A DNA stretch of 56,626 bases, taken from positions 1 to 56,626 of IMG/VR virus record IMGVR_UViG_3300013233_000139, one strand, 5' to 3'. Below, one piece after another: positions 22,994 to 52,676 of this stretch. Positions within the stretch are counted from its first letter, which is position 1. Each line of letters begins with the position of its first letter. A model generated the notes under the pieces. It saw nothing but the letters and a program-made list of their open reading frames with translations, did not search any database and was not told the DNA's origin. This stretch comes from a virus. Made by a program: the position numbers and the translations under genes.

Positions 22994-23329
22994 TTATTTA
23001 TTGGCTTCAGCTGCGGCCTTAGCGGCGTCAGCCACTTCCTTGTGTATATGCTTGAATGTAAAGCATTTGCGCGCTGAATAAATTTGGCCGTACGAAAGGC
23101 CGAGCAATTCCGCACACTCTTTGTGAGAGCTTGCAGCTAGATCACCCGAGATAACCCGACGAGCGTGATCATCATTCATAGCATTCTCGCTCTTGGGGCC
23201 ACGGCTTCGGGCTTCGGGCTTGGCCTCAAATGCTGCAGCCAATTTGTTATGTTCAGTGACAAGCTCATTGACCTTAGCCAGCAAGTCTTTCATAGTCATC
23301 TTCTTAGTGGAATCAAGTAGTTCAATCAT
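22994..23329 (-). CDS. HTH DNA-binding protein, paralogue A
   Basis: 111 residues from the ATG at 23329 (CGGAGACT site 7 bases before). The core RRVISGDLAASSHKECAELL followed by GLSYGQIYSARKCFTF is a helix-turn-helix-like segment shared almost word for word with the protein at 26444-26755. The N-terminus is coiled-coil (LLAKVNELVTEHNKLAAAFE), suggesting a dimer. Many tailed phages carry similar small proteins of unknown target. It stands alone behind an early promoter cassette and next to the iteron arrays, so it may bind there. Confidence 0.65.
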   Translation of the reverse strand: MIELLDSTKKMTMKDLLAKVNELVTEHNKLAAAFEAKPEARSRGPKSENAMNDDHARRVISGDLAASSHKECAELLGLSYGQIYSARKCFTFKHIHKEVADAAKAAAEANK

Positions 23330-23411
23330 TATAGTCTCCGTTCGGTCTGAATTTACTGGCACAGCCAGCATATAAGTATTCTATCAAGTCAATCTGCTAT
23401 GTACACGCCGA
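23330..23411 (-). promoter_or_regulatory. Early promoter/leader cassette (HTH paralogue A)
   Basis: TGTACA (23405-23400)-16-TAGAAT (23383-23378), then a leader with the hairpin CTGGCTGTGCCAG and a GGAGACT ribosome site. Same architecture as six other cassettes in the window. Confidence 0.75.
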
Positions 23412-26318: not shown

Positions 26319-26466
26319 TATAATCTCCTTTTACCCACACTCTTATCAGTTGGCGCACTGCCTCAGTGAACTCCTCAGAGCTGATTGCTCCGACCCTTAA
26401 GCTCACCGAGGCTAGTGACACTTTGCACAATGCCTTCGTGAGGCTACTTCTCAAGACCAGCTGCAT
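26311..26466 (-). CDS. Small early protein coupled to HTH paralogue B
   Basis: 51 residues from an ATG at 26466 inside the end of the HTH gene; it ends in ATGGATGA, overlapping the start of the next (frameshifted) gene. Sequence contains SLRVGAISSEEFTEAVRQLI. No family recognised; support comes from the tight overlap on both sides. Confidence 0.4.
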   Translation of the reverse strand: MQLVLRSSLTKALCKVSLASVSLRVGAISSEEFTEAVRQLIRVWVKGDYNG

Positions 26467-26755
26467 CACGAGCTTCTTGGTTAACGCCTTTGAATGTAAA
26501 ACATTTGCGGGCTGAATAGATCTGCCCATAAGACAGCTCTAACGTCTCCGCAGCCACTTTGTGCGACGCATCCTTCAGGTCACCCATAATAACACGACGT
26601 GCATCGTCCTCAGTCATTGGTTTGTCACTCTTTGGACCTCTATCACGCCCTTGGGGCCTCGCACTAAGCTCATTAACGGCATCGATGAGCGTTGCCACCA
26701 ATTTAGTCAGCTCCACCACAGTATGCTTTTTGTCCAGGTCAATTTGTTCAATCAT
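26444..26755 (-). CDS. HTH DNA-binding protein, paralogue B
   Basis: 103 residues from the ATG at 26755 (AAGGAGACT site). The core DDARRVIMGDLKDASHKVAA then LSYGQIYSARKCFTFKG matches paralogue A at 22994-23329; both have RGPKS before it. The N-terminal region (LTKLVATLIDAVNELSA) is probably a dimerising helix. The upstream in-frame ATG lies in the shared leader cassette and is not used here as the start. Probably a regulator; target unknown. Confidence 0.65.
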   Translation of the reverse strand: MIEQIDLDKKHTVVELTKLVATLIDAVNELSARPQGRDRGPKSDKPMTEDDARRVIMGDLKDASHKVAAETLELSYGQIYSARKCFTFKGVNQEARDAAGLEK

Positions 26756-26830
26756 CTTAGTCTCCTTATAAATAGCCAGCTCAGCCAGCATGTGTTTATT
26801 CTATCAAGTCAAATCATTATGTACACACTT
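26756..26830 (-). promoter_or_regulatory. Early promoter/leader cassette (HTH paralogue B)
   Basis: TGTACA (26825-26820)-16-TAGAAT (26803-26798), GCTGGCT direct repeat in the leader, AAGGAGACT ribosome site. Confidence 0.78.
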
Positions 26831-34613: not shown

Positions 34614-34777
34614 ATGATTGGAAAGAAACTGGTATCGTGATTTTGATATTAATCTTCATGTTCGTATTGATAGTAATAGGTGCAAGCGTCGAACAAAAAA
34701 TTATGCAAGAGCATGCAATAAAACACGGGTGTGCAATGTACGACCCATACACAGGAGATTTCAAATGGAAGAAATGA
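34610..34777 (+). CDS. Small membrane protein
   Basis: 55 residues, overlapping the previous stop (CTATGA). Residues 8-26 (GIVILILIFMFVLIVIGAS) form one membrane span; the C-terminus is polar with a single Cys. Role unknown; typical of phage early proteins acting at the inner membrane. Confidence 0.5.
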   Translation: MNDWKETGIVILILIFMFVLIVIGASVEQKIMQEHAIKHGCAMYDPYTGDFKWKK

Positions 34778-35172
34778 GTAACATAAGACCATGTCCATTC
34801 TGTGGACATACGCCTGAGATGGCCGCAAAAGATACTTACATATTCTGTAACAACAAAAAGTGCGTGCTACACAGCTTTTTAATACCTTCGGAAATGTGGG
34901 ACACCTTGCCGGTAACAACTCACATGACAGACGAAGAGCTGGCGGCGTTAGGCTACGCTCCACTGACTGATGAGGCGGCTGGGAGCCTGGCACCAAAACG
35001 ACCGTACTTCGAAGACGAGGGAGACCTTGATTGGAAAGAGCATCACCACATCTGGGTAAAGACTATGGATTTAAGGTGGTCAAAGACCAAATCTGATAAC
35101 GGTTATTGGAAAGTATTGCAACAGCGTCAAAGCTGTAAATGCGGAAAGAATCAGTGGAACGATGTAAACTGA
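34765..35172 (+). CDS. Zinc-ribbon protein, Lar-like start
   Basis: 135 residues from the ATG at 34765 (CAGGAG site). The N-terminus IRPCPFCGHTPEM, then FCNNKKC, matches the zinc ribbon of Lar-type restriction alleviation proteins, a domain also present in many phage proteins without proven anti-restriction activity. A second cluster (SCKCGKNQW) lies at the end. Function inferred only to the level of zinc-binding. Confidence 0.5.
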   Translation: MEEMSNIRPCPFCGHTPEMAAKDTYIFCNNKKCVLHSFLIPSEMWDTLPVTTHMTDEELAALGYAPLTDEAAGSLAPKRPYFEDEGDLDWKEHHHIWVKTMDLRWSKTKSDNGYWKVLQQRQSCKCGKNQWNDVN

Positions 35173-46969: not shown

Positions 46970-47812
46970 ATGAAAATGTCTACAAATGTAACACCGCTGG
47001 AAAAGCCAGCATATCTCAATTCAGTCGATGCTGGGGATGATGCCGCGTCCTTGGCTGCATCATCTACGTCTGTGCCACGGATTTCGCTCAAAGGCCGAAA
47101 ATATCGTATGATTGAAGGCGGTGAGGAAGTCCATAAGGCTGATACACTTAAGGTTATCATCTTGGGTATTGAGCCCGAAGGCTCTAAATTCATTAAAGCC
47201 TACTATGACGGTCCGTACAACCCTCAAGATACTGCTCCGCCTGATTGTGCAAGCTCAACTGGACTATATCCAGACGGTTGGGTCCAACAGCCTCAGTCAG
47301 ACCGTTGCATGACTTGCCCAAAGAATCAGTTTGGTTCGGCTACTAGCATGTCAGGCAAAAAGGCCAAGGCTTGCAAAGACAGCAAGAGGGCTTGGGTCCA
47401 AGTGCTACCAATTGAGGGCGTAAACCACGATCCTGAGACCATCTATGCTATGGGAATTCCTGTAACGTCATTGCGGTCCGCTGCAGAGTATGGCCGGACT
47501 GTTAAGGCTCAGGGCGTACCTTTGGCCGTATGTATCACAGAACTAAGCATGGAAGACTCTGAATTCCCACAGATTGCTTTTCAGCTGACTGGATTCCTTG
47601 ATGAGTCTGCAGGCTTGAAGGCTATTGATGTAAGCAATAAGAAGTCTTGGCAAGTGGTGGAATCTCCTCGTGAAGATCAGCCTAAGCTGGCAAAGCCTGA
47701 TTATCTTAAAGCTGTGGAAGATAAATCAGAGTCAACTCCTGCAGAAACTGTGGAGCCGGCTGCTAAGGCTCCTACCGCTGCTAGCGTCGATAGCGTAGTA
47801 GATAGCTGGTAA
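46970..47812 (+). CDS. Zinc-containing putative ssDNA-binding protein
   Basis: 280 residues; AGGAGAACATGAAAATG gives two possible starts two codons apart. Central motif SDRCMTCPKNQFGSATSMSG ending KACKDSKR plus PPDCASSTGLYPDGW resembles a widespread phage protein with a Cys cluster. The C-terminal 45 residues are disordered and acidic/Ala-rich (PAETVEPAAKAPTAASV), like SSB tails. It closes the replication operon and is followed by a strong hairpin. Confidence 0.5.
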   Translation: MKMSTNVTPLEKPAYLNSVDAGDDAASLAASSTSVPRISLKGRKYRMIEGGEEVHKADTLKVIILGIEPEGSKFIKAYYDGPYNPQDTAPPDCASSTGLYPDGWVQQPQSDRCMTCPKNQFGSATSMSGKKAKACKDSKRAWVQVLPIEGVNHDPETIYAMGIPVTSLRSAAEYGRTVKAQGVPLAVCITELSMEDSEFPQIAFQLTGFLDESAGLKAIDVSNKKSWQVVESPREDQPKLAKPDYLKAVEDKSESTPAETVEPAAKAPTAASVDSVVDSW

Positions 47813-47867: not shown

Positions 47868-49460
47868 ATGGTTGATTTAGTACTGACACTGGGGCATAAC
47901 TCCAGTGCGATTGCCGTTGATGACGGCGTTATTCTTGATGGATATGAAGAGGAGCGGTTCACAGGCTTAAAAGCGGATAGTGACTACCCGCGTAACTGTA
48001 TTGATAGGCTCTGTGACACTTATGCCTTCGATACAGCTTACGTCAGTCACTGGAATGTTGACGGGGTATTAGCTGACGATAAACATTTTGATAGGTCACA
48101 TATCATGAGCGTCGTCGATAAGGTGATAAGTGTCAACACTAAATTCACTCATCACGATGCACATGCTATGTCGGCAGTAGTCTTTGCTGGAGAGGCTTAT
48201 ACTCAAGATTGCTTAATGATTGTAGCGGATGGCTTCGGTACTATGGGCGAGGTCATGTCCATGTATAACGTGCACAATGGCAAACCCAAACTGTTTAGCC
48301 GCTTCTTTGGCTATGAGAAGTCTTTAGGTCTATACTATCAGTATGCAACATCGTATATGGGTATGAAAGAGCATAACCATGAGTATAAAATGTTGGCTTA
48401 CGAGACCTTGATTTCCAGTATCGATGTTGACACGGACGCTCTCAACAAAGTAACCTTGAAGAAGGCCACAAAGATTATCAATAGTTACACAGCTCGTGAG
48501 CTGCATCGTGAAACGGATCCTCTGCGGATGGTATCAGCTTTAGGTGTAGTTAAGCAGCAAGTCCATGCGTTTTGTGATGACGTGGTAGCCTGCATTGAGT
48601 CGGATAATCCTACGGAGCATGAAATCAGGGTGGTAGTGTCCTTTGCTATACAGCATATAGTGGAGAGAGTCATGGCCCACATGTGCAAAGGGTCTCATAG
48701 CAAGTTACTATTAGTCGGAGGTCTATTCTATAACGTGAAGCTTAATTGGCTCCTGTCTATGGACCATGAGGTGTGCGTCATGCCTATTGCTGGGGACCAA
48801 GGTGCTGGTTTAGGGGTCTACGCACATTATAATCACTTGCAGTGGCCAGATCATATATTCTGGGGATCTCGTGATCTAACTAATTTCCAGCCGGATGACG
48901 ATGTGTTAGTGTATAAGTCTATGGACGATGCTATGTCATCAATTATCATGGAGTTAAAGTATACGGGATTTGTGAACTTGGTGCGAGGCGCTATGGAGTT
49001 TGGGCCTCGATCCTTATGCAACACCTGCACGCTTGGGTTGCCGACTGAAGAAGTTGTTGATACCATAAACCAAATGAACGGTCGTACCAGTGAAATGCCG
49101 ATGGCGCCTGTAGTGACGCAGAGTCAATACGATCAATACTTTAAAAATAACGAATCTGTGTATAAGTCATCAGAGTACATGATAATCGCCAGACAATATA
49201 AAGACGGAATGTCTAAGAATGTCAAAGGCGTAGCCCATGAGTACCCAAAAATGAATTTACACACTGGAAGGCCACAAGTTACAAAGGACCCACATCTGGT
49301 AACCCTTTTAGATACATTCGGGCCTCTTATCAATAGCAGCTATAATTACCATGGCCGCCCTATTGTTTTTGAGCGAGAGAGCATCTTGAGCTCATTAGTT
49401 TTACAGCGTCAAGCGTTGCCTGACGTTAATTTCCAAACCTTTATTATAACAGGAGAATAA
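47868..49460 (+). CDS. Carbamoyltransferase (NodU/CmcH/TobZ family), probable DNA 5-hydroxymethyl-dC modifier
   Basis: 530 residues, full length. LTLGHNSSAIAV (7-18) is the N-terminal motif of the Kae1-like domain; THHDAHAMSA (94-103) is the metal-binding HHxxH; VADGFGTMGE and LLVGGLFYNVKLN belong to the carbamoyl-adenylate site; GAMEFGPRSL (about 367) and INSSYNYHGRPIVF mark the C-terminal YrdC-like part that uses carbamoyl phosphate and ATP. The family transfers carbamoyl to hydroxyl groups. Here it heads a cassette with a dCMP hydroxymethylase-like enzyme, so the likely target is the hydroxymethyl group on cytosine (in DNA or nucleotide). Target inferred from neighbours. Confidence 0.88.
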   Translation: MVDLVLTLGHNSSAIAVDDGVILDGYEEERFTGLKADSDYPRNCIDRLCDTYAFDTAYVSHWNVDGVLADDKHFDRSHIMSVVDKVISVNTKFTHHDAHAMSAVVFAGEAYTQDCLMIVADGFGTMGEVMSMYNVHNGKPKLFSRFFGYEKSLGLYYQYATSYMGMKEHNHEYKMLAYETLISSIDVDTDALNKVTLKKATKIINSYTARELHRETDPLRMVSALGVVKQQVHAFCDDVVACIESDNPTEHEIRVVVSFAIQHIVERVMAHMCKGSHSKLLLVGGLFYNVKLNWLLSMDHEVCVMPIAGDQGAGLGVYAHYNHLQWPDHIFWGSRDLTNFQPDDDVLVYKSMDDAMSSIIMELKYTGFVNLVRGAMEFGPRSLCNTCTLGLPTEEVVDTINQMNGRTSEMPMAPVVTQSQYDQYFKNNESVYKSSEYMIIARQYKDGMSKNVKGVAHEYPKMNLHTGRPQVTKDPHLVTLLDTFGPLINSSYNYHGRPIVFERESILSSLVLQRQALPDVNFQTFIITGE

Positions 49461-49462
49461 TT

Positions 49463-49864
49463 ATGTTTGCACAAAATGTAGCAGAGTTTAATGAGAAAGT
49501 ACTAAAGATTGCACCACGAAAGCCTACAATGCTTAAACCTGAGGAGTTTGATATCTCTGTAAAAGCATTACGTGAAGAAGTGGATGAGTTTGTAGTATCT
49601 ACCACTATGGGTGATTATATTGGATGTGTCGATGCTATCATTGACTTGCAGTATTTCGCGTATGGCGTATTGTACAAGATGGGCTTAACGCCGGAGATAA
49701 TTTCTGAGATTGCTCAAGCTGTTCATGATGCCAATATGACTAAGAAATTAGGGGTTGTGGCAAAACGTGGTGATGGATCTGCCGCGGACGCTATCAAGCC
49801 TGAAGGTTGGGTCCCACCAGAAGTGCAGATTGCAAATATCCTCGATAAGCACGAATGCTTATAG
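49463..49864 (+). CDS. MazG-like NTP pyrophosphohydrolase
   Basis: 133 residues; AGGAG site and two bases from the previous stop. The all-alpha pyrophosphatase motif is visible as ALREEVDEF (about 34-42) and DAIIDLQYFAYG (about 54-65), with VHDANMTKKLG after it. In T4-like phages a dCTPase removes dCTP so that only modified cytosine enters DNA; this all-alpha enzyme could do the same. Substrate is inferred; dUTP or others are possible. Confidence 0.78.
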   Translation: MFAQNVAEFNEKVLKIAPRKPTMLKPEEFDISVKALREEVDEFVVSTTMGDYIGCVDAIIDLQYFAYGVLYKMGLTPEIISEIAQAVHDANMTKKLGVVAKRGDGSAADAIKPEGWVPPEVQIANILDKHECL

Positions 49865-50322
49865 TTGAAGGCATGGATGGTAGCGGCAAGAGTACTCTTG
49901 CCGCTATCCTATCCAAGAACCCATACCATCCACAAGGCCACCCAAAGGATTACACTGAGGCTCTGCCATATATGGTTGACCAGGTAACCATGTTAAACAG
50001 TGGGACTGTGTTGGACCGTTGCACTTGTGTGTCGACAATGGCATATAGATTAGACCAGCCACTAGATGGTAAGTTAATGGATATGGCCTTATCTTTACAC
50101 GAGCGAGGTGCTATATTCATATATTGCCGTCCACCTACGGAGTTGATGCTGGATATAGCCTCTCATGAGCCGTCTGAGTTTGACACCGCTTACACTCTGA
50201 AAATCTTAAAAGATCACGCCGCGGAGATAATTACTCGATACGACAAGATATTCTCAGTTATCCCGCATATACGTTACGATTACACAAAAGGAATAATTCA
50301 TGAAAGCCAAACTGCAACCTAA
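49855..50322 (+). CDS. Deoxynucleoside monophosphate kinase (thymidylate-kinase-like)
   Basis: 155 residues, starting inside the end of the previous gene. P-loop VEGMDGSGKSTLA (residues 4-16), then VLDRCTCVSTMAYRLD (DRx motif, about 58) and FIYCRPP. Short for the family (about 200), with a reduced lid. Would convert the hydroxymethylated dCMP to the diphosphate, as T4 gp1 does. It overlaps the hydroxymethylase gene by 23 bases, supporting this link. Confidence 0.75.
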   Translation: MLIVEGMDGSGKSTLAAILSKNPYHPQGHPKDYTEALPYMVDQVTMLNSGTVLDRCTCVSTMAYRLDQPLDGKLMDMALSLHERGAIFIYCRPPTELMLDIASHEPSEFDTAYTLKILKDHAAEIITRYDKIFSVIPHIRYDYTKGIIHESQTAT

Positions 50323-51103
50323 CAGCCAAATATGGCTCGACATGTTTGCCAAGACAATTCTTGGAGACGTAGTTAAGCCTAGAGGAATTGAGATACGAGA
50401 GAGTAGAAACTTAACTATCGAATTTAGCCCTGAAGAGCCGTTCATGAGCTTTGCTGATCGTAAATACGACGTTGGATACTTTAAAAAGGAAATGTGCTGG
50501 AAGCTAGGCGCTAGCAAGTACGATGAGAGCATTAAGCAGCACGCTAAGATGTGGGAATCTGTGCAGAACCCAGACGGAACCTTTAATAGCAACTATGGAC
50601 AATACTGGTTTGGTGAACAGAACGGCATGATGAGTGTTGTGATGGAGCTTATACGAGATAAAGACAGCCGCAGAGCTGTTATCCCTATGCTTAGTAAAGA
50701 GCACATGACGCCTCAAACCGTTGATATAGTCTGCACAGAGTGTGTAGGGTTTATGATACGTGAGAACACTTTATACATGACAGTCCACATGAGGTCGTCT
50801 GATCAGATATTTGGCTTAGGCACTGACATACCTACCTTCTCATTCCTATACAGACTCGTATATGGACTGCTCAGCGCTTCGCACTTGGGTCTTAAAAAAG
50901 GATCAATCAGTATTACGGCTATGTCCAGTCATATCTATAGCAGACACTATGACATGGTAAATAAGATCGTTGCCGCAGGTATGTACGGGTTTGAGCCTGT
51001 GACGATGCCTTGGTGCGAAGCCCCTGAAGCTATGGCTATAGTTGCAGGTCGTGGCAAGTACACAGTCGTTTGGGGCTACGACCTTATGAGCTGGTTACTA
51101 TAA
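50300..51103 (+). CDS. dCMP hydroxymethylase (thymidylate synthase family)
   Basis: 267 residues; AAGGAA site. Double Arg of the phosphate site in KDSRRAVIPM (124-125); catalytic Cys145 in VDIVCTECVGF, aligned with PPCH of thymidylate synthase; VHMRSSD (162-168) matches the QRSCD motif; in FGLGTDIPTF Asp176 stands where thymidylate synthase has Asn177. That Asn-to-Asp change is the known mark of dCMP rather than dUMP binding (T4 gp42). Expected reaction: dCMP plus methylenetetrahydrofolate to 5-hydroxymethyl-dCMP. The alignment was done by eye. Confidence 0.8.
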   Translation: MKAKLQPNSQIWLDMFAKTILGDVVKPRGIEIRESRNLTIEFSPEEPFMSFADRKYDVGYFKKEMCWKLGASKYDESIKQHAKMWESVQNPDGTFNSNYGQYWFGEQNGMMSVVMELIRDKDSRRAVIPMLSKEHMTPQTVDIVCTECVGFMIRENTLYMTVHMRSSDQIFGLGTDIPTFSFLYRLVYGLLSASHLGLKKGSISITAMSSHIYSRHYDMVNKIVAAGMYGFEPVTMPWCEAPEAMAIVAGRGKYTVVWGYDLMSWLL

Positions 51104-51603
51104 TGAGACCTCAGAGAGACTCTTACTTTATGGCTATGGCGCTGATCGTTGCTCAGCGGTCAACTTGCGTACGTCGAGCAGTAGGCTGCGTCATGATTAA
51201 TGATCGAGGCCATGTGCTAGCTACAGGATATAACGGAGTGGCAACGGGCTTAGTGCATTGCACCGAGGCCCGTTGCCCTGGTGCAGACTTAGTATCAGGT
51301 ACCGGTCTATCTGCGTGTGAGGCTGTACACGCTGAGGTCAATGCAATCATTCAATGTAAGAATGTATTTGAGATCGATACTCTATACAGCACCACGTCTA
51401 TGTGTGTAAACTGTGCGAAACTCGTTATGTCTACGAGCTGTAAACGCATCGTGTTTCTTCACAAATATACCCAGGAAGGCGCAGATAACTTGCTGGAGCA
51501 GCGAGGCATCCAGCAGGTAGAGTTTAAAGACTTTGATGGGTTGGGTAAGTTATTCAATAACGCTACAAATGGGATTACGAACCCTAAGCGCGTAGCAAAT
51601 TAG
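51103..51603 (+). CDS. dCMP deaminase
   Basis: 166 residues; the ATG overlaps the previous stop (TAATG). Zinc ligands and catalytic Glu are in CEAVHAEVNAI (His76, Glu78) and TSMCVNCAKLV (Cys101, Cys104; the usual Pro before the Cys is Met). An extra Cys/His set (CTEARCPG) also fits the family. It makes dUMP for dTTP and is allosterically controlled in relatives. In the cassette it balances cytosine and thymine pools. Confidence 0.88.
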   Translation: MRPQRDSYFMAMALIVAQRSTCVRRAVGCVMINDRGHVLATGYNGVATGLVHCTEARCPGADLVSGTGLSACEAVHAEVNAIIQCKNVFEIDTLYSTTSMCVNCAKLVMSTSCKRIVFLHKYTQEGADNLLEQRGIQQVEFKDFDGLGKLFNNATNGITNPKRVAN

Positions 51604-51611
51604 GAGGGTAT

Positions 51612-52676
51612 ATGTTAGAGACTTTATACAGGCTTAACGCCGGCGGTAAAATAGGCACTTGGGAGATATGGTCCGAAGGATCAACCTTGTTTTATGCCAG
51701 CTGTCAAGTTGAGAACGGAGCAAAAGTAATTCACTCTGAGCAGGTACAACTTAATCAGAGCGGCAGGTCTATTGAGGAGCAATTAGCATTGCAGAAAAAG
51801 GCTAGGATATCTAGGGTCCTAGATAAAGGCTATAAGCGGGATAGGTCCGAGGCGTTAAAAGGGTCAACTAATCAGTTAGGGCTGCTTAGGCCGATGCTAG
51901 CCCAATCTATAAGTAAGATAAAGAATACATCATTTTTTGGAGCTGTACTGCAAAAGAAGCTTGATGGACACCGCTGTCTAATCAGATCGCATGACGGAAT
52001 GCTGACTGCATACTCACGACAAGGTAAGATACTCTCTACGATCGGACATATCACAGATGAGTTAGTTAACTTGCCGGATGGAGTTACTCTAGACGGTGAG
52101 CTGTATTGCCATGGTAAATCATTGCAGACCCTATCCAGCTGGATAAAACGTAAGCAGGATAATACTGCGAAGTTACGATATATGGTGTATGACCTAATCA
52201 CAGAGGAACCTATGTCTTATAAGGTTAGGCATAACCGGCTAACTCAAATGATTGATGGATTAGAGAATATCGAAGTGCTAGGTTATGTGGACTATAAAAG
52301 CCAAGAGCATCTGATGAGAGTATTTGCAGACGTCAGAAAGCGCGGATACGAAGGTGTGATTATCCGTATGGATAATAGACCGTATGAAGTCGGCAAGCGT
52401 AGCACTAGTCTCATAAAAGTCAAAGAGTTCATGGACGAGGACTTCTTGGTTATTGATGTTATCCCCTCCAAGGACGGCTGGGGCAAGTGCGTATGTGAGA
52501 CTGATAAATGCGTACAGTTTACCACCAGCGCGCCTGGTAATATAGCTCAGAAGACAGAGATCCTCAAAAACAAGAATGACTATATCGGCCGGAAGCTAAC
52601 GGTTGAGTTTGCATGTTATACCAAAGATGGTAAACCATTTCACGCAGCCGCTCTACGTTTCTTGGAGCTAGTATGA
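51612..52676 (+). CDS. ATP-dependent DNA ligase with WGR-like N-terminus
   Basis: 354 residues; GGAGG site. Adenylation motif KKLDGHRCL (Lys116), LDGELYCHG (motif III), EGVIIRM (motif IV) and SLIKVKEF (motif V). The first ~75 residues (KIGTWEIWSEGSTLFYAS ... GRSIEEQLALQKKARISRVL) look like a WGR domain, a DNA-binding module also present in PARPs and some phage ligases. Seals nicks in replication or repair, possibly on modified DNA. Confidence 0.9.
   Translation: MLETLYRLNAGGKIGTWEIWSEGSTLFYASCQVENGAKVIHSEQVQLNQSGRSIEEQLALQKKARISRVLDKGYKRDRSEALKGSTNQLGLLRPMLAQSISKIKNTSFFGAVLQKKLDGHRCLIRSHDGMLTAYSRQGKILSTIGHITDELVNLPDGVTLDGELYCHGKSLQTLSSWIKRKQDNTAKLRYMVYDLITEEPMSYKVRHNRLTQMIDGLENIEVLGYVDYKSQEHLMRVFADVRKRGYEGVIIRMDNRPYEVGKRSTSLIKVKEFMDEDFLVIDVIPSKDGWGKCVCETDKCVQFTTSAPGNIAQKTEILKNKNDYIGRKLTVEFACYTKDGKPFHAAALRFLELV

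Follow-up and report, generated by a model that had tools for sequence, protein, structure and literature searches.

A predicted five-gene cassette for 5-carbamoyloxymethyl-deoxycytosine in an Xp15-like phage

Gene content and organization of the locus

The window analyzed here is an entire virus record of 56.6 kb, and it carries five head-to-tail ORFs on the plus strand at positions 47868-51603. In order, they encode a NodU/TobZ-type carbamoyltransferase (CT) with N and C Carbam_trans domains (47868..49460, 530 aa), the predicted capper of the 5hmC hydroxyl; a MazG-like (PRA-PH) nucleotide pyrophosphohydrolase (49463..49864, 133 aa), a putative dCTPase; a thymidylate-kinase-like P-loop nucleotide kinase (49855..50322, 155 aa), a putative 5hm-dCMP kinase; a predicted dCMP 5-hydroxymethylase of the thymidylate synthase (TS) family (50300..51103, 267 aa) with Cys145, Thr146 and Asp176; and a dCMP deaminase (51103..51603, 166 aa). 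All five genes and families proposed in a preliminary description of this DNA were recovered by Pfam and PHROG matches, whereas NCBIfam gave nothing above cut-off for any of the five proteins. The same description called the genes mostly overlapping, which is right for MazG/kinase (10 bases), kinase/TS (23 bases) and the deaminase, but not for CT/MazG, where a 2-base gap separates the two genes. The deaminase most likely starts at the ATG at 51103, whose first base is shared with the TS stop codon (TAATG), rather than at the TTG at 51070 (177 aa). Chance is not the explanation for this cassette, because all five genes have counterparts in the same order in Xanthomonas phage Xp15 (gp35-gp39, NC_007024), with 39-65% identity.

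The MazG-like protein matched PF01503 (3e-10) and the deaminase PF00383 (3e-17), and each is 45% identical to its Xp15 counterpart. The kinase contains the P-loop GMDGSGKST, matched the thymidylate kinase family PHROG 761 (5e-16) and is 39% identical to the Xp15 protein; its Pfam match was below cut-off, and a sequence search of the PDB found no relative.

Both flanks of the cassette are conserved. Directly upstream of the CT, both here and in most complete cassettes, lies a 280-aa gene of unknown function (46970..47812, plus strand; PHROG 27714), which is 43-51% identical to its counterparts in Xp15 and in Acinetobacter phages HHU4 and Effie. Its product has four Cys spaced in a CxxC-like manner and might bind DNA. 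Directly downstream is an ATP-dependent DNA ligase (51612..52676, plus strand), which belongs to the replication module rather than to the core cassette. Elsewhere in the window, the plus-strand ORF at 34618-35172 had a weak, sub-cut-off match to the restriction alleviation protein Lar (PF14354, E 8e-4). Two minus-strand ORFs (22994-23371 and 26444-26791) are probably paralogues, because both matched the same stretch of Xp15 gp02 (466-771) at 51-56%. No tRNA genes were found in the window, and seven of its other proteins scanned with PADLOC gave no match.

The carbamoyltransferase belongs to the clade of an assayed 5hmC enzyme

The CT matched PF16861 (5e-20), PF02543 (5e-16) and PHROG 1601 (6e-61), and its AF2 model (pLDDT 93.8) matched GdmN, TobZ, NovN and VtdB over approximately 470-480 residues (Z 32 to 39). 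Equivalents of TobZ His14, Met473 and Ser530 are kept, together with the presumed metal ligands. From end to end, the protein is 37% identical to the MetaGPA 5hmC carbamoyltransferase, a phage enzyme assayed by Yang et al. (2021, eLife; PMC8670742). According to that paper, the enzyme requires carbamoyl phosphate, ATP and 5hmdC, yields 5-carbamoyloxymethyl-C, and is active on ssDNA and 5hmdCTP but inactive on 5mdCTP and 5hmdUTP; on modified contigs, CT, TS, PRA-PH and dCMP-deaminase domains co-occur. The link between carbamoyltransferases and this modified base that the preliminary description drew from metavirome work therefore exists, and the published work goes further than stated there, with an assayed enzyme and nearly the same set of domains found together.

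In a CT tree of 46 rows, the window protein and the assayed enzyme fell within one clade of 42 rows, where they share a 12-row subclade (support 93/86). The CTs outside this clade, separated at 100/100, were L065, C48C1 and two cyanophage proteins, all of them non-cassette; since the tree was rooted at its midpoint and the outgroup branches are long, the clade represents a split and not a dated origin. At the equivalents of TobZ W408, G421 and R423, the positions named as modification-associated by Yang et al. (PMC8670742), the window has Leu, Cys and Thr, the assayed enzyme Ile, Cys and Thr, and L065 Trp, Gly and Arg, with the TobZ numbering inferred from motif spacing. At the position of TobZ Lys443, each of the 38 cassette rows (Asn404 in the window) and the assayed enzyme have Asn, whereas Lys is kept in L065 and in the cyanophage CTs. 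Cassette CTs share two changes from TobZ, Arg423->Thr and Lys443->Asn, of which the latter is not mentioned in the available text of PMC8670742.

The TS-family enzyme resembles cytidylate hydroxymethylases

The TS-family enzyme matched PF00303 (1e-15). In an alignment with E. coli ThyA, Asp176 corresponds to Asn177, Cys145 to Cys146, Thr146 to His147 and Asp142 to Leu143, and ThyA residues Glu58, Trp80, Tyr94, Arg126, Arg166, Asp169, His207 and Tyr209 are kept. The pairing of Asp176 with Asn177, which had been named beforehand as the alignment on which the reading could fail, came out as claimed. TS proteins of unmodified contigs are reported to have mostly Asn at 177 (Yang et al., PMC8670742).

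A sequence search of the PDB placed the T4 dCMP hydroxymethylase first (2.7e-17), followed by the CMP hydroxymethylase MilA (4e-10); a phage dCMP hydroxylase, AfhB, reached 5e-8 and E. coli TS about 1e-4. With a profile built from 36 cassette TS-family proteins, the values were 2e-52 for MilA, 1e-48 for T4, 6e-37 at best for TS and 1e-29 for AfhB. By sequence, the closest relatives of this enzyme are the cytidylate hydroxymethylases (T4 gp42 and MilA) and not TS. Its AF2 model (pLDDT 95.6) was nearest to MilA (Z 26.8, rmsd 2.2, 252 residues), and TS, T4 gp42 and AfhB were tied near Z 22 (AfhB, Z 22.6). The predicted fold thus favours MilA and leaves T4 gp42 and ordinary TS unseparated. Neither ThyX nor a second TS was found in the window.

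Occurrence of the cassette among CT loci

We surveyed 65 CT loci, comprising 60 from IMG/VR (identified by a CT profile scan), four named phages and the window; these counts are not independent, because truncated loci, near-copies and Xp15 itself are included. A TS-family gene was located near the CT in 59 of the 65 loci, and all five genes were present in 25. Every one of the 63 aligned TS-family proteins has Asp at 177 and retains the catalytic Cys. Among the loci with no TS nearby, L049 carries an Asp-type TS gene in another part of its contig; L065, whose CT has a non-cassette motif, has none on its contig, and the remaining ones are short contigs or are cut at one end.

Two further arrangements were observed. 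Four genomes contain two Asp-type TS homologues each, namely L004 (Bacteroides phage BF503P2; 10456-11259 and 13336-14013), L025, L043 and L052. In the last three, one copy has Asn in place of the RSxD Asp (ThyA Asp169) and, from its sequence, may be divergent or a partner subunit. In six loci (L024, L037, L039, L042, L058 and L061), the order is kinase, TS and CT, almost touching, with no MazG or deaminase gene nearby; their contigs reach up to 230 kb.

Proposed pathway and alternative explanations

Families, gene order, active-site residues, phylogeny and predicted folds were computed here, and from the T4 pathway and the gene order we infer the substrates of the MazG-like enzyme and the kinase. 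The cassette very probably replaces dC with 5-carbamoyloxymethyl-deoxycytosine. The reading first proposed, hydroxymethylation of dC followed by carbamoylation, is supported by residues, phylogeny, structure prediction and gene order, which all agree. In this pathway, the MazG-like enzyme would convert dCTP to dCMP and so remove the normal precursor, and the TS-family enzyme would place a hydroxymethyl group onto C5 of dCMP. The kinase would phosphorylate 5hm-dCMP, a host NDP kinase would complete 5hm-dCTP, and the family A polymerase of the phage would incorporate it. Using ATP and carbamoyl phosphate, and via a carbamoyl-adenylate, the CT would cap the hydroxyl, with either 5hm-dCTP or ssDNA at the fork as its acceptor, and the dCMP deaminase would divert some dCMP to dUMP for dTMP. 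In vivo, the capped base would be expected in the phage DNA and would protect it against host nucleases, among them enzymes that recognize free 5hmC.

The TS-family enzyme might instead make 5-methyl-dCMP, as happens in phage XP12, or 5-hydroxy-dCMP, in which case the CT would cap another hydroxyl or have another role; we consider this improbable. A hydroxylase has a precedent in AfhB of phage HY126 (PDB 9iqc and 9iqu, titled as an FAD-dependent dCMP hydroxylase), the TS homologue that matched the window enzyme in both sequence and fold. However, both the sequence search and the cassette profile give much stronger scores for the T4 hydroxymethylase and MilA, and an FAD-dependent enzyme of the AfhB type is therefore less likely. 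A literature search on AfhB-type hydroxylases and later 5cmdC work, with subscription papers mostly outside its coverage, found nothing useful. As for the methyl product, 5mdC was not a substrate of the assayed CT from the same clade, which does act on 5hmdC (PMC8670742).

It is highly unlikely that the substrate of the CT is a sugar or some other small molecule, as for NodU, TobZ and the cyanophage relatives, with the nucleotide genes as mere neighbours. Cyanophage CTs with the same PHROG annotation do sit among sugar genes, but they and other non-cassette CTs keep the GNR motif together with Lys443, whereas the window has CNT and Asn404; they also fall outside the cassette clade at full support (100/100), and within that clade linkage to an Asp-type TS is near universal. 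With motif, clade and gene context all different, we rejected small-molecule carbamoylation. Least credible of all is an ordinary dTMP-supply set without base replacement, consisting of deaminase, TS, kinase and a dUTPase-like MazG. Although the first three are common in dTMP supply and the window has neither ThyX nor a second TS, the enzyme has Asp at 177 and Thr at 147, its closest relatives are hydroxymethylases, and Xp15 has a separate ThyX beside the same TS-family enzyme. A plain thymidylate synthase was rejected on the basis of Asp176 and the PDB matches (2.7e-17 for T4 versus about 1e-4 for E. coli TS).

Within the favoured 5-carbamoyloxymethyl-dC pathway, the stage of capping can be addressed more tentatively. 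In T4, capping follows DNA synthesis. Here, the CT could conceivably carbamoylate 5hm-dCTP, with the polymerase then incorporating 5cm-dCTP directly, although we hold this version with rather less than even confidence. Capping before replication was suggested by Yang et al. (PMC8670742), and it is compatible with the present cassette because all four partners of the CT would act on free nucleotides. If this is true, the cassette would carry out the whole assembly of the base at the nucleotide level, and the changes Lys443->Asn and Arg423->Thr seen across the clade would mark a change of acceptor.

Comparison with known systems

The MetaGPA system is alike in having a homologous CT of the same clade, an Asp177 TS homologue, PRA-PH and dCMP deaminase, and the predicted product, 5-carbamoyloxymethyl-dC, is the same. 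It comes from a different phage. In addition, the kinase is absent from the co-occurring domains named in the available text of Yang et al. (PMC8670742), and the Pfam match of the window kinase lies below cut-off.

The preliminary description implied that the five-gene arrangement was new; it is in fact already present in the sequenced phages Xp15, HHU4 and Effie, whose genome sizes are similar to that of the window. Xp15 also matches many of the replication and structural genes of the window (terminase 69.6%, helicase 61.9%, major head protein 60% and polymerase 52.7%), but differs in having ThyX (gp49) and extra genes between the deaminase and the ligase. As a cultured phage, Xp15 allows the base to be sought directly. 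HHU4 and Effie have the five genes in the same order as the window, with 40-42% identity for the CT and 47-52% for TS, but Gly instead of Cys at TobZ G421. Their MazG ORF is longer (L003:9652-10326 and L005:8652-9326) and is matched twice by the window protein, which looks like an internal duplication. For genes of Acinetobacter and Bacteroides phages annotated as NodU-type carbamoyltransferase or as hypothetical, a likely function can now be proposed, which is of use in understanding phage escape from host nucleases.

The T4 5hmC system (gp42, gp1, gp56, cd and glucosyltransferases) works alike up to 5hm-dCTP, and its gp42 and the TS-family enzyme of the window are homologues. Consistent with the lack of a glucosyltransferase noted in the preliminary description, the window gave no match to the models PF09198, PF11440 or PF00535, with the first two lacking a positive control and the contig possibly incomplete. 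The T4 cap is glucose, whereas the cap predicted here is carbamoyl.

The cassette is thus clearly a further instance of a system already described rather than a new kind of system, because the activity, the base and a nearly identical domain co-occurrence were published in 2021 (PMC8670742) and the gene order exists in deposited genomes. Our analysis adds a well-supported example from an Xp15-like phage. It also adds the kinase as a regular member of the cassette, the uniform Asp at 177 in 63 relatives, and two CT residues that mark the clade, and it speaks for the 5-carbamoyloxymethyl-dC pathway being a compact and widespread phage cassette.
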